A stretch of DNA of 64,000 nucleotides. It comes from Streptomyces sp. NBC_01788 (GTDB lineage: Bacteria; Actinomycetota; Actinomycetes; Streptomycetales; Streptomycetaceae). The stretch spans positions 2,666,001 to 2,730,000 of the forward strand of contig NZ_CP109090.1 in assembly GCF_035917575.1 (NCBI RefSeq). Reading direction: 5' to 3'. The translations under genes and the position numbers were made by a program. The notes below the pieces were generated by a model. The model worked only from the letters and a program-made list of their open reading frames with translations. It ran no database searches and was not told the DNA's origin. Of this stretch, positions 55,338 to 64,000 are shown one piece after another (position 1 is the first letter of the stretch; the number at the start of each line of letters is the position of its first letter).

Positions 55338-55700
55338 ATGACCGAGACCAACGCGCTTGATCCCGAGGACCTCAAGATCGTCACTCTGGCCCGTTCGGCA
55401 CGGGCCCGCAACGGTGTGCCGGAGGGCGCGGCCGTACGGGACGAGACGGGGCGTACGTATGTCGCCGGGTCGGTGAGCCTCGCCTCACTGCGGCTGAGCG
55501 CCCTGCGGACGGCGGTGGCGATGGCCGTCGCGTCCGGGGCGACGTCGCTGGAGGCGGCGGCGGTGGTCGGCGAGGCGGAGGAGATCGCCCCCGAGGACCT
55601 GGCCGCCGTACGGGACCTGGGCGGTGCGAAGACGCCGGTTCTGCTGGCCGGACCCGACGGCACCGTACGGCTCACCCGGCCGGCGGGCGAGGACGGCTGA
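55338..55700 (+). CDS. Cytidine deaminase-like protein lacking zinc ligands
   Basis: 120 residues. VTLARSARARNGVPEGAAVRDETG, TYVAGSVSLASLRLSALRTAVAMAVASGA follows the cytidine deaminase pattern, but the Cys of the usual TGxNVENASY is absent, the HAE motif is replaced near LRLSALRTAV, and no PCGxC is present. A deaminase zinc site cannot form. Such proteins are annotated as cytidine deaminase in streptomycetes at this place as I recall. It may be a non-catalytic relative that binds nucleotides or partners. Confidence 0.75.
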   Translation: MTETNALDPEDLKIVTLARSARARNGVPEGAAVRDETGRTYVAGSVSLASLRLSALRTAVAMAVASGATSLEAAAVVGEAEEIAPEDLAAVRDLGGAKTPVLLAGPDGTVRLTRPAGEDG

Positions 55701-55776: not shown

Positions 55777-56589
55777 TCAGTCGGTGGAGGCGGCCCCGGA
55801 GGCCTCCTGGACGGTGCGGTAGGCCGTCAGACCGCCGTCCACGCGGATGTCGGTGCCGTTGATCCAGGCCGCGGAGTCGCTCAGAAGGAAGGCCACGACA
55901 TCGGCGATGTCCGCCGCCTCCCCGAACCGTCCGAGCAGGGCGCCGGCTCCCTCGACCTTGGCGACGCCGTGGTCCCGCTTGAAGTCGTCGAGGATCGGCG
56001 TGGCCACGGGCCCCGGGCTGACCGAGGTCACCCGGATCCTGCGGGGCAGGTACTCGGCCGCGAGGTGTTCGGTGAGGTACCGCACGCACTCCTTGGAGAA
56101 CCGGTACGAGTGACCGGTGACGCTCTCATCCAGGGCCACGGCGTCGAGCGCCACCTCGGTGTCGGCGGCCAGGGCGAAGGCCCGTACCGCCGGCAGGTTC
56201 CGCTCCCAGGCGGTGGCCACGGCCGAGGACAGGTTGACGACGCAGCCTCCTTCCCGGATCGCCGGTGCGAGAGCGGCGGTCAGTTCCCGCAGGCCGAAGA
56301 CGTTGACGCCGAGCACCGTCCGCCAGGGCGCCGTTCCGGGCACCCCGGCGATGTTGGCGAGCCCCGCGAGCCCGTCCGGCGCGGCGGCCAGTACGCTCCG
56401 CGCGGCCATGTGCGCGCCGGCGGGCGTGGACAGGTCGGCCCGCACGAAGGTCCCCGCGAAGGACTCGGGCACCGATCGGTCGATTCCGACGACGGGCAGG
56501 CCCCTGCCGGCGAGCAGACGGGCGGCCGCCGCTCCGATGCCGGAGGCGACCCCGGTCACGACCACGGGCAACTGCGTGTTGTTCGTCAT
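55777..56589 (-). CDS. SDR family dehydrogenase (coniferyl-alcohol dehydrogenase-like)
   Basis: 270 residues from the ATG at 56589. The Rossmann motif is VVVTGVASGIGAAAARLLA, with D for NAD(H) preference at GIDRS. Catalytic residues: Ser in VVNLSSAVA, Tyr and Lys in SYRFSKECVRYL. The insertion between strands and the C-terminus DIRVDGGLTAYRTV match the 3-alpha-hydroxysteroid / coniferyl-alcohol dehydrogenase group. It should oxidise a secondary or benzylic/allylic alcohol. It is divergent from the ALDH operon and has its own IclR-type palindrome. Confidence 0.88.
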   Translation of the reverse strand: MTNNTQLPVVVTGVASGIGAAAARLLAGRGLPVVGIDRSVPESFAGTFVRADLSTPAGAHMAARSVLAAAPDGLAGLANIAGVPGTAPWRTVLGVNVFGLRELTAALAPAIREGGCVVNLSSAVATAWERNLPAVRAFALAADTEVALDAVALDESVTGHSYRFSKECVRYLTEHLAAEYLPRRIRVTSVSPGPVATPILDDFKRDHGVAKVEGAGALLGRFGEAADIADVVAFLLSDSAAWINGTDIRVDGGLTAYRTVQEASGAASTD

Positions 56590-56686
56590 GGCTCTCACTT
56601 GTTCGTCGGCGGAATGTACGGATGACGAATGACCAGGGGTCCGCGGGCCGAGCCTCCGGGTGAAGCGGCGTCCGTGACAAGCCCAC

Positions 56687-56703
56687 TTTCCACCCTGTGG
56701 AAA
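56687..56703. promoter_or_regulatory. IclR-regulon palindrome 1 (SDR side)
   Basis: TTTCCACCCTGTGGAAA, perfect 7-bp arms, 98 bases before the SDR start. It belongs to a set of three 17-bp sites (56687, 56750, 61724) that fit TTTCCACTNAGTGGAAA. CCGTGACA lies about 15 bases before this and the next site. Confidence 0.82.
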
Positions 56704-56749
56704 ACTCCGCGGCGCTCAGGGGTGAGCCGGCAGCCGTGACACGGTCCGC

Positions 56750-56766
56750 TTTCCACTGAGTGGATG
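56750..56766. promoter_or_regulatory. IclR-regulon palindrome 2 (ALDH side)
   Basis: TTTCCACTGAGTGGATG, perfect 6-bp inner arms (TCCACT/AGTGGA), 72 bases before the aldehyde dehydrogenase start. Same core as site 3 (TTTCTACTGAGTGGAAA). Confidence 0.82.
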
Positions 56767-56837
56767 ACCTGCTTGCCCAAGGTGTGACCTGCGGGGATCG
56801 TGACATCCCGTCCCCTCCCCCGACCAGGAGCACGCCG

Positions 56838-58265
56838 ATGGCCCAAGAGACGTACGCCGTACACGACCCGGCCACGCTGGAGCCGGTCGGCCGGGCCCCG
56901 GTGCACGGCGAGGACGAGGTACGGCAGGCGATCGCCGCCGCGCGGGCCGCCGCACCGGCGTGGGCCGCGGACCGCGCGGCCCGGCGGGCCGCGCTGCACG
57001 CCTGCGCGGACCTCGTCCGCGCCCACGAGGACGAACTCGGACGGCTGCTGTCCCTGGAACAGGGCAAGGTCCTGGCCGAGGCCGTCGGCGAGTTCCGGGT
57101 CGGCGCCGGGCTGCTGGACCACTACGCCGCGCTCGCCTGGGCCGAGGTGGAGCGGCTGCCCGACCGGGCCGACCGCAAGGTCGAGGTGCACTACCGGCCC
57201 GTGGGCGTAGTCGGCACCATCACGCCGTGGAACTTCCCCATCTCCCTGCTGTGCGTGAAACTCGCCCCCGCGCTGACCGCCGGGTGCACCGTCATCGCCA
57301 AGCCCTCCGCCACGACACCGCTGTCCACCATGGCGCTGGTCGACCTCATGAACCGGGTCCTGCCCGCCGGTGTGCTGCAGTACCGCACCAGCCCCGGCCG
57401 CGCGGTCAACGTGGCGCTGAGCGCCCTGCCCGGCGTCCGGAAGATCTCGTTCACCGGGTCGACGGAGGTCGGCACCGCGGTGGCCGCCCAGGCGGCCGCC
57501 ACGGTCAAGCGCGTCACCCTGGAACTCGGCGGGAACGACCCCGCGATCGTCCTGCCGGACGCGGACGTCGAGACGACCGCGTCCGGCATCGTCGGTTCGG
57601 CCTTCCGCAACGCGGGGCAGGTGTGCATGGCCGTCAAGCGGGTCTTCGTGCCGCGCGGCCTGCGGGACGAACTGGTCGAGGCCATGGCCGAGGCCGTCGC
57701 CCGGCACCGGCTCGGTCACGGGGTGGCGGCCGGGTCGACCATGGGCCCGATGCACTCGGCCGCCCAGCACGGCATCGTCCGCGGCCTGGTCGACGGCGCC
57801 GTCGCCGCCGGGGCGCGGGTCGCGGCGGGCGGCGGACGCGGCTGCGACCTGCCCGGTCACTTCCTCGAACCGACGATCGTCACGGACGCCGAGGTCGGCA
57901 TGGACCTCGTCGACGCCGAGCAGTTCGGCAACGCCCTGCCGGTCGTGGCCTACGACGACCTCCGGACGACGATCGACGGCCTGAACGCACAGGACTTCGG
58001 GCTCGGCGCCTCGGTGTGGTCGCCGGACCTGGACCGCGCCCACGCGGTGGCGGCGGACATCGAGGCCGGCACGGTCTGGATCAACCAGCACACCCAGGTG
58101 GAGCCGGACGCCCCGTTCGGCGGCTGGAAGGCCTCCGGCCTCGGACGTGAGCGCGGCCGCTGGGGACTGGAGGAGTACCTCGAACCCCGGACCGTCAACG
58201 CCCGTCCCCACCACACCCCGGCACCGCACGAGGCGGCCCCCGTAACGGAAGGACAGCGTCGGTGA
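56838..58265 (+). CDS. Aldehyde dehydrogenase (NAD(P)+-dependent)
   Basis: 475 residues from the ATG at 56838 with CAGGAG upstream. The ALDH fold has PVGVVGTITPWNFPISLL, ISFTGSTEVGTAVAAQA, the catalytic Glu in TLELGGNDPAIVL and the nucleophile Cys in RNAGQVCMAVKRVF. EQFGNALPVVAYDD takes the place of the usual EQFGP. It should convert an aldehyde made by the SDR into the acid; vanillin- or coniferaldehyde-type aldehydes are plausible. The MBL-fold gene overlaps its stop (GTGA). Confidence 0.94.
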   Translation: MAQETYAVHDPATLEPVGRAPVHGEDEVRQAIAAARAAAPAWAADRAARRAALHACADLVRAHEDELGRLLSLEQGKVLAEAVGEFRVGAGLLDHYAALAWAEVERLPDRADRKVEVHYRPVGVVGTITPWNFPISLLCVKLAPALTAGCTVIAKPSATTPLSTMALVDLMNRVLPAGVLQYRTSPGRAVNVALSALPGVRKISFTGSTEVGTAVAAQAAATVKRVTLELGGNDPAIVLPDADVETTASGIVGSAFRNAGQVCMAVKRVFVPRGLRDELVEAMAEAVARHRLGHGVAAGSTMGPMHSAAQHGIVRGLVDGAVAAGARVAAGGGRGCDLPGHFLEPTIVTDAEVGMDLVDAEQFGNALPVVAYDDLRTTIDGLNAQDFGLGASVWSPDLDRAHAVAADIEAGTVWINQHTQVEPDAPFGGWKASGLGRERGRWGLEEYLEPRTVNARPHHTPAPHEAAPVTEGQRR

Positions 58266-59215
58266 CCGACACCACGTCCGCACAGCGCGGCATGGACCTC
58301 ATCACGCTCGGCGTCGCCGCCGGGCCCGCCATCCGAGGCCCCGAGCACGGCATCGCCAGCGCGGTCGTCGTCGACGACGTCTTCTACCTCGTCGACTTCG
58401 GCATCGGCTGCACCCGTGCCGCGGGCGAGGCCGGTCTGCGGGGGCAGCGGTTCCGGGCGGGATTCATCACGCACCTGCACTCCGACCACGTGATCGAGCT
58501 CCCGGGGTTCCTGCTGTGGAACTGGGGGCGGCCGGTGAACGGCTTCTCCACTCCGGTCGACATCATCGGCCCCGGCCCCGACCCGGACGACGGCACCCGG
58601 CACCTCGCCGGTACGGACCGCCTCGTGGCCTCCGTTCTGGACGCGTTCTCCTACGACATCGCCATCCGGGCGGGCGACGAGGACCGGCCGCCGCTGGCGG
58701 ACCTGGTGCGCGCCTCGGAGGTGGCCGCCCCGGCCAGGGGCTCGGCTGCCGCCGGGGAACCGTTCGAGGTGTACGCCGACGAGCGGATCACGGTGACCGC
58801 CGTCCTGGTGGACCACCCGCCGGTGCACCCGGCCCTCGCCTACCGGATCGACTCCGCGTACGGGTCGATCACGTTCTCCGGAGACACGGCCGAGTCGGCG
58901 AACCTCGCCCGGCTGGCCGAGGGCACCGATATCCTCGTCCACGAGGCCGTCAACCTCGGCTTCTACCGCAGCCGTGGCTTCTCCGCGGCCTTCCTGGCCC
59001 ACCAGGAGAACTCGCACACCCCGCCGGCCGGGGCGGGCCGGATCGCCAAGGCCGCCGGAGCGCGGCGCCTGGTGCTGTCCCACTTCGCGGGGTTGGCGGA
59101 CGCCGAGTACTGGCGTGCCGAGGCCGCGTCGACGTACGACGGCCCGATCGACGTCGCCACGAGCGGCGCGCGGTTCTCCGTCGCCACGGATCCCGCGGTC
59201 CGCGCGGGGATTTGA
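58262..59215 (+). CDS. MBL-fold metal-dependent hydrolase
   Basis: 317 residues from a GTG overlapping the ALDH stop. The metal-binding THLHSDHV motif is followed by [10 protein letters not shown] (Asp) and LVHEAVN, and LVLSHFAG near the end (His). The layout is of RNase Z/arylsulfatase-like members. It may open a lactone or hydrolyse an ester intermediate of the same pathway; this is inference from the operon. Confidence 0.88.
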
Positions 59216-59285
59216 ACGGGCGTACGTGGGTGTCGGCGGGTGCCGACAGGTGTGGAACGGCGCGGGAAGGAAGCGGGAGAACGGC

Positions 59286-59684
59286 ATGGGCTCGGACAGT
59301 GGCCGGGGACGCGAGGACGGGAACGGCGGGGTCGGCGGGGACGGCGGGGAGAAGGAACCCGACTACCGGTTCACGCTCGCCAACGAGCGCACTTTCCTGG
59401 CCTGGATCCGTACCGGTGTCAGCCTGCTCGCGGCGGCGGTGGCGGTGCGGCAGCTCGTACCGGCCTTCACGATCCCGCACGCGCGGGAACTCCTCGCGGT
59501 CGTGTGCGCGCTGCTGGCCGTCGTGATCACGGGTGGGGCCTATCCGCACTGGCGGCGCGTCCAGCGAGCGATCCGGCGTGACGCGCCGCTGCCCGGCTCC
59601 TGGCTGCTGCCCGTGCTGGCGACCGTGATCACGGCCATCGCGTCGTTCACCACGGTGCTGGTCTGGGCCGGCGGGCCCGCGTGA
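59286..59684 (+). CDS. DUF202 (YidH-type) membrane protein, first of pair
   Basis: 132 residues; GGGAGAA upstream. A Gly-rich acidic N-terminus of about 25 residues precedes the DUF202 motif [21 protein letters not shown] and three membrane segments. The function is unknown. The second DUF202 gene overlaps the stop (GTGA), so the two are made together. Confidence 0.88.
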
Positions 59685-59977
59685 GGCGGCGGGACCCGGG
59701 ACTGCAACCCGAGCGCACCCGCCTCGCCTGGCGGCGGACGACCATGTCCCAGACGGTGGGTGCGCTGCTGCTCGTGCACACGGCGGCGAGCGGCTCCTCT
59801 CCGCTGGGCTGGGCGTGCGCGGTCTGCGCGGCCACGGCCACGGCCGTGACCTTCCTCGTCGGCGGCATGCGGCGGGAGACCGCGCCTCCGCCGCCCGCGG
59901 CGATGGCCCTGACCGCGGCGACGACGGTCGCCACGGCCCTGATCAGCCTGCCCTTGCTGCTGACCGGCGGGGCGTGA
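59681..59977 (+). CDS. DUF202 membrane protein, second of pair
   Basis: 98 residues from a [19 protein letters not shown] is the DUF202 signature, followed by two to three membrane helices. It is coupled to the previous gene. DUF202 pairs occur widely in Streptomyces; here they end the ALDH-MBL transcript or stand as a separate unit. Confidence 0.87.
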
Positions 59978-60148
59978 GCCGCAGGCTCCGCCGCCGGATC
60001 CGCCGCCCTACGACGCCTGCCGCGCGCGATGTGCCGGCCCGCGAGCTCCTACCGGGGTCCTTACCGCGAATCGCCGACCTCGCACGGCACCCGCGGCGCA
60101 CGCGCCCTTGCGTCACGACGCCCGTCCGGCGGACACCCGCACCGCAAG

Positions 60149-60390
60149 CGCCCGTCCCGCGAACACCGGCGCCGCGCGAGCGCCCTTCCGCGAACGCCAG
60201 CCCCGCGCGAGCGCCCTTCCGCGAACGCCAGCCCCGCGCGAACACCCTTCCGCGAACACCGGCCCCGCGCAAGCGCCCTTCCGCGAACACCGGCCCCGCG
60301 CGAACACCCTTCCGCGAACACCGGCCCCGCGCGAACACCCTTCCGCGAACACCGGCCCCGCGCGAACACCCACGCCCCGAACGCCGGTCC
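60149..60390. repeat. 31-bp tandem minisatellite, about seven copies
   Basis: Units start at 60149 (32 bases), 60181, 60212, 60243, 60274, 60305, 60336, with a partial copy at 60367. The consensus runs CGCCCTTCCGCGAACACCGG then CCCCGCGCGAA. The copies are nearly identical. The period is not a multiple of three, so reading frames rotate through it. The 831-base stretch 59978-60808 has no supported gene. Confidence 0.9.
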
Positions 60391-60464
60391 GCCCGAGCCT
60401 CCGTCACCGCCAACGCCCGACCCACGCGTATGCCCATCCCGCCAGCCCCTTCGCCGCCAACGCC

Positions 60465-60640
60465 CGCGTCCCAGGCGGTTGCCCGCACCACCAACCCCCG
60501 CACCGCCAACGCCCGCGTCCCGCGCGTATGCCCGCACCGCGAGAACTCCCGCACCACCGAGGCCCCGCGTCCCGGGCGTATGCCTGCCCCGCACGAACTC
60601 CCGTACCGCCAACACCCGCGTCCCAGGCGGATGCCCGCAC
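60465..60640. repeat. Degenerate repeat of about 50 bp, four copies
   Basis: CGCGTCCCAGGCGG or CGCGTCCCGGGCGT, then ATGCCCGCACC or close variants, recurs at about 60465, 60514, 60566 and 60617 (49-52 bases apart). It follows the 31-bp array and precedes iclR. Confidence 0.65.
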
Positions 60641-60808
60641 CGCCGACGCCCGGCCGCGCACCCCCGTCCCTGTGAAGCGCCCATCCCACGCGAACGCCGG
60701 CGCCCGACCCGGGCGAACCGCCGCACCGCCGACGCCGCACCGCGAACGCGGGCCTGCCTGCGCCCGGCGGCAGGGCCCAGGCCCCCGCCTTGCTCGGCCG
60801 TGCCGGCG

Positions 60809-61609
60809 CTACGCGGCCAGGCGGCCCGCCTCCCGGGCGATGCTTCGGGCGGCGATCTGCAGGACCGGGACGATCCCGGCCGGTCGGGGGCGCGTTCCGA
60901 CGGTGACCACGCCGAGGGCCGCGATGACACCGCCGCCGACGGCGGTGACCGGCACCGCGATGCCGTGCGCCCCCTCGACCGCCTCCTCCAGGGTCATGGC
61001 GTAGCCCTTGCGACGGACCTGTTCGAGTTCACGGCGCAGCCGGGTCGGGTCGATCACGGTGTGCGGGGTGAGCCGCTGCGGGTTGGCCAGGGCGGCCCGC
61101 GCGAGTTCCGGCGGTCCGTAGGCGAGGAACGCCTTCCCTCCGGCACTGGCGTGCAGGGCGAGGCGGTCGCCCACCCGGTGCAGGGCCGGACCTGGCTGGG
61201 TCCCGGAGATCCGTTCGAGCAGCAGGGCGTGGGCGCCGTCGAGGACGAAGAGGTTGACCACGTGCTTGGTCAGGAAGAGCACGTCGTGCATGTAGGGCGC
61301 GGCCAGTTCGGCGAGGCCGTGGTGGCTCTCGGACAGCAGCCCCAGGGACCACAGCTTGTGGCCGATGCGGTACCGGCCACCGGTCCGCAGCAGGCCGCCC
61401 CACTCGACGAGCTCACGGACGAGCCGGTGGCAGGTGGCCACCGGCAGCCCGCTGCGGCGGGAGATGTCGCTCAGGGACAGCTCGTAGTGCTCCGAGTCGA
61501 AGGTGTCCAGGATCCTCAGCGCACGGGCGGCGACGGATTTCGGCGCCGCCCCCGCGGATCCCGCCGGCAACGCCTCCCGCTCGGTGGGCCGCTTGTCCTG
61601 AGAGCTCAT
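60809..61609 (-). CDS. IclR family transcriptional regulator
   Basis: 266 residues. The N-terminal winged helix (about 25-90) has AARALRILDTFDSEHYELSLSDIS and GLPVATCHRLVRELVEWG. The C-terminal effector domain (about 95-260) has LASAGGKAFLAY-like LHASAGGKAFLAYGP and VEGAHGIAVPVTAVGGGV. Regulators of this family control aromatic and acid catabolism. Its gene is divergent from the reductase-P450 operon. The three 17-bp palindromes around it are its probable operators. Confidence 0.92.
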   Translation of the reverse strand: MSSQDKRPTEREALPAGSAGAAPKSVAARALRILDTFDSEHYELSLSDISRRSGLPVATCHRLVRELVEWGGLLRTGGRYRIGHKLWSLGLLSESHHGLAELAAPYMHDVLFLTKHVVNLFVLDGAHALLLERISGTQPGPALHRVGDRLALHASAGGKAFLAYGPPELARAALANPQRLTPHTVIDPTRLRRELEQVRRKGYAMTLEEAVEGAHGIAVPVTAVGGGVIAALGVVTVGTRPRPAGIVPVLQIAARSIAREAGRLAA

Positions 61610-61723
61610 GAAACCGCACAGTACGACCCGTGGGAGGCGAAGGAAAGCCCTCGGGAAATTCCGGGAAGCCGCAGGTCGGAATAGCGGTGAGCAGGGACAC
61701 GTCGACCAGGGCGCCCATGACGG

Positions 61724-61740
61724 TTTCTACTGAGTGGAAA
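61724..61740. promoter_or_regulatory. IclR-regulon palindrome 3 (reductase-P450/iclR)
   Basis: TTTCTACTGAGTGGAAA: 8-bp arms with one mismatch around a central G, 98 bases before the reductase start and 115 before iclR on the other strand. It equals the consensus of sites 1 and 2 except for one base. Confidence 0.82.
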
Positions 61741-61837
61741 GCCTCGGGGAAAGGCGCTCCGCGCTACCTAACATTCCCGCACCGGTGCGACACGGTTCGC
61801 CCGGCCCCCGAGGACCACGTGAGAAAGCAGGCTTCAG

Positions 61838-62830
61838 ATGGGCGGACTCAGTGCGCGCGCGGACCGCCGCGGCGTCGGGGCCAGCACCCGCGAGGTGATC
61901 GCGGAACGCGTGGACCGGATCGCCGACGGTGTCGTCTCCCTGGTCCTCGTGACCCCGGACGGGTCGCCCTTCCAGCCGTGGGAGCCCGGCGCCCACATCG
62001 ACGTCCACCTCGGCGACCAGTACGTGCGGCAGTACTCCCTGTGCTCCTCCCCCGACGACCTGTCGCACCTGCGTGTCGCCGTCCTCGACGTCCCCGGCTC
62101 GCGGGGCGGCTCCCGCTGGATCCACGGGAACGTACGCCCCGGCGACACGCTGGAGATCTCCGAGCCGCGCAACAACTTCCCGGTCAGGGACTCCCGGAAG
62201 TACCTCTTCCTGGCCGGCGGCATCGGCATCACCCCGATCATCCCGATGATCGAGCGGGCGGCGGAGGCGGGCAAGGACTGGCGCCTGGTCTACGGCGGAC
62301 GGTCGCGCGGCAGCATGGCCTTCGCCGAGCAGCTGGTCGGCACGTACGGCGACCGGGTCGACGTCGTCGCCGAGGACGAGCGCGGCCGCATGGACCTGGC
62401 GGGCGTGCTGGCCCTGCCCCGGGCCCACATGCTGGTGTACGCCTGCGGGCCGGGCGGGATGCTGCGCGCGGTCGAGGACCTGTGCATGGGATGGCCGCCC
62501 GGCTCACTGCACACCGAGCGGTTCGCGGCGACCGCGCTGGGCCCCGGGTCCGTGGCCGAACCGTTCGAGGTCGAACTCGCACGCAGCGGGAAGACCGTTT
62601 CGGTGCCCACCGACCGCACGATCCTGGAGGCGGTCGAGGACGTCGGTGTCCGCGTGCTGTCCTCGTGCCGGCAGGGCCTGTGCGGCACCTGCGAGACCAC
62701 CGTCGTCTCGGGCGAGCCGGAGCACCGGGACGCGGTGCTCACCCAGGACGACCAGGACGGGGGCGCGACCATGATGATCTGCGTCTCCCGTGCGGCGGCG
62801 GGCTGCGGCCGACTCGTCCTCGATCTGTGA
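61838..62830 (+). CDS. PDR/VanB-type oxygenase reductase (flavin, NAD, 2Fe-2S)
   Basis: 330 residues. The flavin-binding RQYSL (R64-S67) is followed by the NAD domain with FLAGGIGITPIIPM (about 125-138) and YACGPGGM (about 201-208). A C-terminal plant-type 2Fe-2S domain has C277, C282, C285 and C315 (CRQGLCGTC). The layout is that of phthalate dioxygenase reductase and vanillate demethylase reductase. It normally serves a Rieske oxygenase; here the adjacent partner is a P450, 28 bases downstream. Confidence 0.93.
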   Translation: MGGLSARADRRGVGASTREVIAERVDRIADGVVSLVLVTPDGSPFQPWEPGAHIDVHLGDQYVRQYSLCSSPDDLSHLRVAVLDVPGSRGGSRWIHGNVRPGDTLEISEPRNNFPVRDSRKYLFLAGGIGITPIIPMIERAAEAGKDWRLVYGGRSRGSMAFAEQLVGTYGDRVDVVAEDERGRMDLAGVLALPRAHMLVYACGPGGMLRAVEDLCMGWPPGSLHTERFAATALGPGSVAEPFEVELARSGKTVSVPTDRTILEAVEDVGVRVLSSCRQGLCGTCETTVVSGEPEHRDAVLTQDDQDGGATMMICVSRAAAGCGRLVLDL

Positions 62831-62858
62831 CAGACCGGCACCGAAAGAGGTTCTCTTC

Positions 62859-64000
62859 ATGACCATCGCACCTGCCGAGGGCGTCGTCACGCTCCCGGAC
62901 GACCCCTTCTCCCCGGCGAACATCGCGGACCCCTGTCCGATGCTGACGCGGCTGCGCGAGGCCGGCCCCGTGACCTGGCTGGAGAAGTGCGGCGCGTACG
63001 CGGTCGCCGGCTTCGAGGAGGTCTACGAGGTCCTCACCGACTTCGAGACGTACTGCTCCTCCGGCGGTCTCGGCCCGCGCGACATCCGCGAGGACGCGGG
63101 ATGGCGCCCGCCGAGCATCCTGGAGTCCGACCCGCCGATCCACACGGTCATGCGGCGCGCGCTGACCGGCGTCATCAACCCGGCGACGGTACGGCCGCTG
63201 CGGGAACGTTTCACCGGACCTGCCGAGGAGATCGCCGACGAGCTCGTCGCCCGCCGCGAGTTCGACGTGGTCAAGGACCTGGCGGAGAAGTACCCGCTGC
63301 GAGTCTTCCCCGACGCGGTCGGCATCCCCCAGGAGGGCCGGGAGAACCTGCTGCCCTACGGCAACATGGTCTTCAACGCGTTCGGCCCGCAGAACGAGAT
63401 CTTCGACCTGGCCTTCGCCCACGCCGACGAGCACAGCGCCGCGATCCTGCGCAACTGCGCCCGGGAGAACCTCGACGACACCGGCTTCGGCGCGCGCATC
63501 TGGGACCGCGTGCAGGACGGTCTGATCACCGCCGAACAGGCCGCGCTCCTGGTGCGGGCCCTGCTGTCCGCGGGGGTCGACACCACCGTCTTCGGGATCG
63601 GCAACACCCTCGCCTGCCTGGCGCGTTCGCCCCGGGCCTGGGCGGCACTGCGCGAGGACCCGTCCCTCGCCAAGTTCGCCGTGGACGAGGCGCTGCGCCT
63701 GGAGTCCCCGTTCCAGAAGTTCCACCGGACGACCACGGCGCCAGGCGTGCTGGGCGGCGTCCACATCCCGGCGGGCGCCAAGGTGCTGCTCTTCATCGGC
63801 GCCGCCAACCGCGACCCGCGCAAGTGGGGCGCGAACGCCGACACGTACGACCTGGACCGGCAGGCGTCCGGCCACGTCGCGTTCGGCATGGGACTCCACC
63901 AGTGTGTCGGGCAGCCCATCGCCCGGCTCGAGATCGAGCTCGTACTCAAAGCCCTCGCCGCCCGCGTCGACACGATCGAACTCACCGGCGAGCCGGTCCC
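62859..64000 (+). CDS. Cytochrome P450 (CYP199-like), truncated by the window end
   Basis: 380 residues visible from the ATG at 62859 (AGAGG eight bases upstream); the last part is outside. The I-helix has SAGVDTTVFG (about 237-246), the K-helix EALR (E277, R280), and the haem loop FGMGLHQCVGQ with C349 as the iron ligand. The N-terminus and FHRTTT segment recall CYP199 enzymes, which O-demethylate para-methoxybenzoates. The substrate is inferred. Electrons should come from the reductase encoded just upstream. Confidence 0.93.
   Translation, partial: MTIAPAEGVVTLPDDPFSPANIADPCPMLTRLREAGPVTWLEKCGAYAVAGFEEVYEVLTDFETYCSSGGLGPRDIREDAGWRPPSILESDPPIHTVMRRALTGVINPATVRPLRERFTGPAEEIADELVARREFDVVKDLAEKYPLRVFPDAVGIPQEGRENLLPYGNMVFNAFGPQNEIFDLAFAHADEHSAAILRNCARENLDDTGFGARIWDRVQDGLITAEQAALLVRALLSAGVDTTVFGIGNTLACLARSPRAWAALREDPSLAKFAVDEALRLESPFQKFHRTTTAPGVLGGVHIPAGAKVLLFIGAANRDPRKWGANADTYDLDRQASGHVAFGMGLHQCVGQPIARLEIELVLKALAARVDTIELTGEPV

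Follow-up and report, generated by a model that had tools for sequence, protein, structure and literature searches.

The stretch of Streptomyces sp. NBC_01788 DNA analysed here (64,000 nucleotides, bases 2666001–2730000 of a one-contig, 8.27 Mb genome; hereafter the window, whose numbering is used throughout) ends in an island of genes that includes a CYP199-like cytochrome P450 and a regulator of the IclR family. The island genes occupy positions 55777–64064 and follow each other in the order short-chain dehydrogenase/reductase (SDR, −), aldehyde dehydrogenase (ALDH, +), metallo-beta-lactamase-fold hydrolase (MBL, +), DUF202 a (+), DUF202 b (+), IclR (−), reductase (+) and P450 (+), then a major facilitator superfamily transporter (MFS, +) and era (+); the end of the P450 gene and the MFS gene lie beyond the window edge. 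Judged from the comparison of genomes, these genes are one real unit, which recurs in dozens of actinobacteria, and the same comparison makes a single IclR-controlled aromatic pathway a well supported prediction. The features are the following:

55777–56598, − strand: SDR-family alcohol dehydrogenase; GTG start at 56598, in-frame ATG at 56589; divergent from ALDH
56688–56702, no strand: palindrome TTCCACCCTGTGGAA, IclR-type, SDR/ALDH intergenic region; 16.8 bits with a matrix from reductase upstream regions
56751–56765, no strand: palindrome TTCCACTGAGTGGAT, IclR-type, SDR/ALDH intergenic region; 16.0 bits with the same matrix
56838–58265, + strand: aldehyde dehydrogenase; ATG start, earlier in-frame GTG at 56760
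58262–59215, + strand: MBL-fold hydrolase of the RNase Z/MBL-arylsulfatase fold; metal ligands intact; 4 bp overlap with the ALDH stop
59286–59684, + strand: DUF202 membrane protein a, accessory; ATG start assumed
59681–59977, + strand: DUF202 membrane protein b, accessory
60809–61609, − strand: IclR-family regulator, divergent from the reductase
61725–61739, no strand: palindrome TTCTACTGAGTGGAA, IclR-type, IclR/reductase intergenic region; 19.4 bits
61838–62830, + strand: PDR/VanB-type reductase; NAD-binding domain plus a 2Fe-2S domain at the C-terminus, with a flavin domain presumed from relatives
62859–64000, on to 64064 in the genome, + strand: CYP199-like cytochrome P450
64333–65694 (window-equivalent, outside the window), + strand: MFS transporter
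65776–66738 (window-equivalent, outside the window), + strand: era

All the domains named in a first-pass annotation of the window, and their order, were recovered with Pfam and NCBIfam models (SDR, PF13561/PF00106; ALDH, PF00171 with 467 bits; MBL, PF12706/PF00753; P450, PF00067; reductase, NAD_binding_1 and Fer2), with two corrections: the P450 reading frame ends 64 bp past the window, at 64064, and is therefore complete in the genome, and the MFS gene belongs to the set.

Recurrence of the gene set in actinobacteria

Relatives of the P450 were collected by a scan of one genome per species, which gave 151 matches, and the loci analysed are the best 80 of these 151. Forty-one of them, with at least 64% identity, make up the clade of the window P450; 37 of the 41 are “long” (at least 15 kb), one of the 37 being the near-identical strain CB01373. 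The remaining 39 loci, all CYP199-type with 49–54% identity (29 of at least 15 kb and 10 under 15 kb), form the control. With a threshold of 45% identity, SDR, ALDH, MBL, IclR, reductase and P450 occur together in 37/37 long clade loci, and the MFS gene in 36 of the 37, being not found in Blastococcus (L049). None of the control loci holds the SDR, MBL or MFS gene, even at 30% identity; ALDH is found in 0/39 at 45% and in 3/39 at 30%, and a relative of the reductase is present in 26/39. The gene order of the module varies, from IclR-RED-P450-MFS-MBL-ALDH-SDR in Glutamicibacter (L055) to SDR-ALDH-MBL-IclR-RED-P450-MFS in Tersicoccus (L072), so that joint retention is not mere synteny. The first-pass annotation had proposed that the genes belong together and had pointed to other actinobacteria as the place to look; the recurrence of the module, mostly in Micrococcaceae, bears the grouping out. 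It had also called the combination unfamiliar; no description of it was found in the open-access PMC papers searched, and it recurs in dozens of species. In Zafaria (L040:3411-7944) and Blastococcus (L049:4326-8857), a LysR-like regulator and an ABC transporter (two permeases, an ATPase and a binding protein), assigned by eye, adjoin the module.

Within Streptomyces, strain CB01373 (L047) has a nearly identical island, its genes matching at 97–100%. A P450 of at least 90% identity is found in 2/295 Streptomyces genomes (our own and G092), the next ones reaching at most 57%. Among 394 genomes sampled across the class, a close MBL is found only in our own; 14/394 match at all, namely our own and 13 at 35–44% identity, and a similar search with the SDR matched 5/394, our own and four at 41–46%. 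Eleven regions with such distant MBL relatives, from 10 genomes, were inspected by eye; the gene often lies beside transporters and LysR/IclR genes, and no substrate is indicated. In our genome, the island is flanked by era on one side and, on the other, by a small gene at 55338–55700, which has no Pfam or NCBIfam match at 0.001 and which we take to be a cytidine deaminase gene (cdd-like). The cassettes of Streptomyces tagetis and G092, close to each other and of identical nine-gene order, have no era or cdd-like gene inside the ~20 kb fetched. These differing sites fit a transfer of the whole set into different places, and the cassette has probably spread by transfer. The 54 plasmid records that match the P450 are all below 60% identity, so none of them holds a member of the clade.

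With a GC content of 0.729, close to the 0.715 and 0.720 of its flanks, the island has a base composition without foreign signature. The stretch from the cdd-like gene to era is variable in Streptomyces, the two genes being at most 300 bp apart in 5/29 other loci (L149–L178). The gap between DUF202 b and IclR (GC 0.783) contains tandem repeats at 60119–60652 (units of 31 bp, with 92% matches, and of 49 bp) and is much shorter in S. tagetis (L037). Scans for sigma-70 promoters and for terminators found none.

The DUF202 pair (62.9 and 41.3 bits for a and b, Pfam cut-off 23.4) is a different case. The first-pass annotation had counted it as a part of the island, where it is indeed present; it lies beside the module in just 17/42 loci and is therefore accessory. 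These two genes are the only DUF202 genes of our genome. In 10 of the 21 genomes described below (one being the near-identical CB01373), a pair lies within ~10 kb of the module P450, against a chance expectation of ~0.1–0.2 cases, a rough estimate given one or two pairs per genome. The pair is placed in at least five ways: following the MBL, the SDR or the P450 gene, diverging from the reductase, or at the outer end of the MFS genes. The module-linked copies do not form one clade (six changes, at least two of them forced, on a tree with long branches), which lends no support to a link that arose just once; the pair was apparently recruited to the module more than once.

A palindrome common to both divergent promoters

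A 15-bp palindrome of the TTCCATTGGATGGAA type occurs at both divergent promoters of the island, at 56688, 56751 and 61725. Separate searches in the regions upstream of the reductase (38 regions) and between SDR and ALDH (35 regions) each yield a TTCC...GGAA palindrome, with log-likelihoods of 183 and 210, respectively, at width 16, versus 21–25 in letter-shuffled controls (two per set, with fewer restarts than the real searches). A matrix trained on the reductase upstream set only, seeded with the palindrome core already seen in the searches of both sets, gives at least 12 bits in 31/33 training regions and 30/36 SDR|ALDH regions; it does so in 5/218 other intergenic regions, a background that excludes those beside other module genes. 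A matrix from both sets gives 190 matches of at least 12 bits over 42 loci, where each overlapping register of a site counts as a match of its own, versus 10 in shuffled copies. When all three Streptomyces cassettes are aligned, ACTGAGTGGA is invariant at both promoters, much of the surroundings differing, and the site at 56751–56765 has identical letters in both related cassettes. The 15-bp sites thus gain support as predicted operators of the IclR protein, which would place both promoters under one regulator, as the first-pass annotation had supposed in speaking of one IclR regulon.

In our own 8.27 Mb genome, a pattern derived from the three sites of the window, and hence partly circular, matches exactly nowhere else. 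A looser pattern, with one mismatch allowed, gives 19 rows, of which 13 (11 places) fall outside the island, versus 5 for a backwards-read control. Elsewhere in this genome, a near-palindrome, TTCCACCAGGTGGAA, was noticed at G000:C1:7183128-7183142. Among the 26 PbdA-like control loci, the reductase-trained matrix reaches 12 bits in three. Five further such loci (L085, L086, L095, L101 and L113) show by eye a related palindrome, e.g., TCTCATTGAATGAGA, at a similar distance from the reductase; these TCTCAT-ATGAGA type arms are a possible candidate for the operator of their IclR regulators.

The regulator itself scores 46.6 bits with HTH_IclR (cut-off 22) and 113.9 bits with IclR_C (cut-off 24). 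It has these domains in common with the PcaR/PcaU/PobR regulators, as well as its closest curated model, TIGR02431, where it falls below the cut-off (133 vs. 284.75 bits); a naming as PcaR/PobR was therefore set aside.

The P450 pocket and the accompanying proteins

A P450 with more than 40% identity to named members belongs to their CYP family. The window P450 is 51.9% identical to CYP199A4 over 364 residues and 48.7% to PbdA, and its earlier description as CYP199-like stands; it has the heme-thiolate motif FGMGLHQCVG, with its Cys aligned to Cys358. Pocket residues, numbered as in CYP199A4, were taken from PMC11530827 and PMC11854964, and the 41 clade members were compared with 64 other CYP199s of at least 45% identity; 13 further CYP199 rows below 45%, in which these residues vary, were counted apart. 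The clade keeps Arg92, Arg243, Phe182, Phe185, Phe298 and Thr252 in 41/41, and the window P450 has both Arg92 and Ser95 of the CYP199A carboxylate site. Four changes (S244A, V295F, F299H and the deletion of residue 96) are found in 41/41 clade members versus 0/64 other CYP199s, all of which keep Ser95, Ser244, Val295 and Phe299 and have residue 96.

In a quick tree of 97 rows, the module P450s form one clade (SH-aLRT 98), and the next branch (99) adds three sister P450s, G103 and the second copies of Blastococcus and Arthrobacter mangrovi; these have S244A, V295F and the deletion in 3/3 and Gly95 in 3/3, keep Phe299 and have lost Arg92 in 1/3. PbdA groups with plain IclR-reductase-P450 loci, its neighbours being a Rhodococcus plasmid P450 and the second copy of Pseudarthrobacter sulfonivorans (97). 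Nine of 20 module genomes searched contain 11 further CYP199-related matches at 1e-60 (34–53% identity to the window P450). The second copies of P. sulfonivorans and Halopolyspora are 77.8% and 75.7% identical to PbdA, in genomes that also have the module. An orthology of the module P450 with PbdA is excluded by the 48.7% identity and the separate clade, and the pocket changes, together with the coexisting PbdA orthologues, speak against a simple PbdA duplicate. Para-oxidation of an aromatic acid by the P450 is likely, its natural substrate probably being an acid other than p-methoxybenzoate.

An MIO-type ammonia-lyase is encoded no more than two genes away from two of the three sister-clade P450s (L215:4036-8142, L217:6387-9531). 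These lyases score as members of the histidine ammonia-lyase subfamily and have SN where the HutH-like protein of L218 has SH; such a lyase may be an arylacrylate-making enzyme paired with the P450.

The closest described system is PbdA/PbdB, the p-methoxybenzoate O-demethylase of Rhodococcus jostii RHA1 (CYP199A; PMC11530827), likewise a CYP199-type P450 with its own flavin/iron-sulfur reductase; such a reductase occurs in 26 control loci, 22 of which have an IclR relative as well. The equivalents of Arg84 and Ser87 of PbdA are kept in the module P450, whereas that of Ser237 is Ala, that of Val288 is Phe, and one residue is deleted in the loop before Leu90; moreover, the module adds the SDR, ALDH, MBL and MFS genes. 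With CYP199A2 and CYP199A4 of Rhodopseudomonas, the module P450 has the aromatic cage in common, and the same pocket changes set it apart. Thirteen control loci come from other phyla; in these, several of them short, no relative of the module reductase was found.

The reductase was correctly assigned to the VanB/PDR type: its Fer2 domain lies at the C-terminus, at residues 247–319 of 330, after the NAD-binding domain, and its best solved structures are the fused P450-reductases 6laa and 6kbh, then phthalate dioxygenase reductase 2pia. GcoAB (CYP255A), a guaiacol O-demethylase acting on lignin aromatics, is likewise a P450 with a single-chain reductase, but GcoB has its 2Fe-2S domain first, whereas that of the module reductase comes last.

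A coniferyl-type SDR had been proposed, and the nearest model is indeed coniferyl-alcohol dehydrogenase NF009092; the score stays below the curated cut-off (225.5 vs. 242 bits), and an identification as CalA was set aside. ALDH falls short of the cut-off for each specific NCBIfam model listed. The MBL metal ligands His71, His73, Asp75, His76, His185, Asp208 and His274 (HxHxDH and further ligands) are invariant in 53 sequences; its structure model (mean pLDDT 94) is closest to the MBL-type arylsulfatase of Pseudoalteromonas atlantica (8gyg), then to PNGM-1 and RNase Z, and it is far under the RNase Z curated cut-offs (86.2 vs. 363 bits for the best model), which rejects RNase Z. The closest model of the MFS protein is a D-galactonate transporter (126.9 bits, cut-off 395); aromatic acid symporters match it less strongly (51.4 bits).

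Candidate pathway and its alternatives

What we observe are seven co-conserved genes, one kind of palindrome at two divergent promoters, a PDR-type reductase directly before the CYP199-clade P450 and, elsewhere in the genomes tested, genes for 4-hydroxybenzoate breakdown. The reading that we favour, as moderately probable, is that of a catabolic cassette which a single IclR regulator controls and which serves the use of an aromatic alcohol, probably of plant type, or of a conjugate of it. In such a cassette, the MFS protein would import the compound, the MBL enzyme would hydrolyse an ester or similar bond, and SDR and ALDH would convert the alcohol so released into an aromatic acid. Arg92 and Ser95 would hold this acid in the P450, which would oxidise it at the para position with electrons passing from NADH through the reductase, and PobA and PcaGH would take the 4-hydroxy acid into the beta-ketoadipate pathway; the IclR protein would sense the substrate or an intermediate and switch both promoters together. 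Downstream genes were searched in 21 genomes, our own and 20 of those of the 41 clade loci. A PobA-like match is found in 21/21 (best per genome 385–521 bits), in Blastococcus on the same contig, ~7 kb from the P450, and PcaH is above its cut-off in 20/21; routes for a 4-hydroxybenzoate product are thus predicted to exist in the genomes tested.

Several points weigh against this reading. The step order and the MBL role are themselves conjectural. The loci are related, mostly Micrococcaceae, and their counts, not being independent events, overstate independence. Ser244, one of three carboxylate-binding residues, is lost in 41/41 clade members including the window P450, and Ser95, kept in 35/41 including the window P450, is Gly in 6/41. 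No PobA-like match in the 21 genomes is above the curated cut-off of 538.7 bits, Sinomonas is without PcaH over its cut-off, and PobA/Pca genes may be common in such bacteria, the counts being given without a background rate. The palindrome is present in just 17/48 regions upstream of the MFS gene or of a second MFS family and was not found upstream of the window's MFS gene in the 12-bit matrix scan; the seeding of that matrix and the choice of its background, described above, count on the same side.

The alternatives differ mainly in what the P450 does. SDR and ALDH could turn an anisyl, veratryl or coniferyl-type alcohol into a methoxy acid that the P450 then O-demethylates at the para position like PbdA and CYP199A4, a possibility of some weight that we nevertheless lean away from. 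PMC11530827 reports PbdA, CYP199A2, A4, A25 and A35 as O-demethylases of p-methoxybenzoate and/or veratrate (A25 coming from an Arthrobacter, according to a title in its reference list), and gives for PbdA S237A, the position of S244A, a nearly unchanged specific activity on p-methoxybenzoate (2600 vs. 2700), with Kd going from 3.8 to 29 µM; the top model of the SDR, although below its cut-off, also points this way. The four pocket changes and the separate clade argue against it, as do the PbdA orthologues (78% and 76%) that P. sulfonivorans and Halopolyspora hold beside the module, where the same activity twice would be redundant. Moreover, no formaldehyde dehydrogenase-like family was seen by eye among the further families present in at least 4/42 loci, no dedicated family search having been made. 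A part for MBL or ALDH in formaldehyde removal (mycothiol route) was considered as a conjecture. Of the aromatic-acid substrate put forward in the first-pass annotation, para-oxidation is retained as likely, whereas an O-demethylase acting on p-methoxybenzoate or veratrate is still guesswork. The P450 could instead para-hydroxylate an unsubstituted acid of the benzoate or cinnamate type, derived from benzyl or cinnamyl alcohol, replacing the ring dioxygenase route, which we regard as a serious, though tentative, contender. V295, which corresponds to Val288 of the hydrophobic pocket of PbdA (PMC11530827), is Phe in the clade; the sister clade, 3/3 with S244A, V295F and the deletion, has an unusual MIO-type ammonia-lyase, possibly an arylacrylate maker, near the P450 in 2/3 of its loci; and our own genome has no BenA match. 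A paper title in a reference list names CYP199A25 of Arthrobacter a benzoic acid hydroxylase, while PMC11530827 places the same enzyme among the O-demethylases. Against hydroxylation, BenA is over its cut-off in 9/21 module genomes, where benzoate thus has another route; the sister-locus lyases score nearest to histidine ammonia-lyase models, and the loss of Ser95 in 3/3 and of Arg92 in 1/3 sister P450s means that their acid site differs further.

A reversed order, in which the P450 starts by hydroxylating a methyl or alkyl substituent on an aromatic acid and SDR and ALDH then oxidise the new alcohol further, is compatible with the gene content and with the hydroxylation of p-ethylbenzoate by PbdA and CYP199A4 (PMC11530827); it appears improbable, leaving the MBL hydrolase without a role, and no recurrent dicarboxylate-specific family was seen in the loci by eye, no dedicated family search having been made. 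That the substrate is non-aromatic (e.g., a terpenoid), with the P450 recruited to other chemistry, is still harder to credit: the pocket is altered from CYP199A and MBL, SDR and ALDH are generic, but Arg92, Ser95 and the phenylalanine cage are retained, and the IclR protein, although below the cut-off, is nearest to PcaR/PcaU/PobR. Chance neighbours without a common role, to which we give hardly any credence, were set aside in view of the joint retention in rearranged orders and the common palindrome.

Going beyond the favoured cassette, one may speculate, with a low degree of belief, that a CYP199 subfamily has shifted from O-demethylation of p-methoxybenzoate to hydroxylation of the bare para position of benzoate or cinnamate-type acids, and that a transferable, single-regulator cassette, which brings along an importer, a hydrolase, SDR and ALDH, converts esters of the benzyl or cinnamyl type to 4-hydroxy acids, the DUF202 pair having been recruited several times. 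If true, this would be an oxygenase route independent of ring dioxygenases. O-demethylation and related P450 oxidation of aromatic acids is a rate-limiting step in the use of lignin compounds, according to PMC11530827. The cassette looks self-contained, a natural set that brings its own importer, redox partner and regulator and occurs in many actinobacteria. Its P450s naturally carry at a carboxylate-binding position the Ser-to-Ala change that was engineered by hand in PbdA, and through its link with the DUF202 pair it gives a foothold for studying a membrane family of unknown function.

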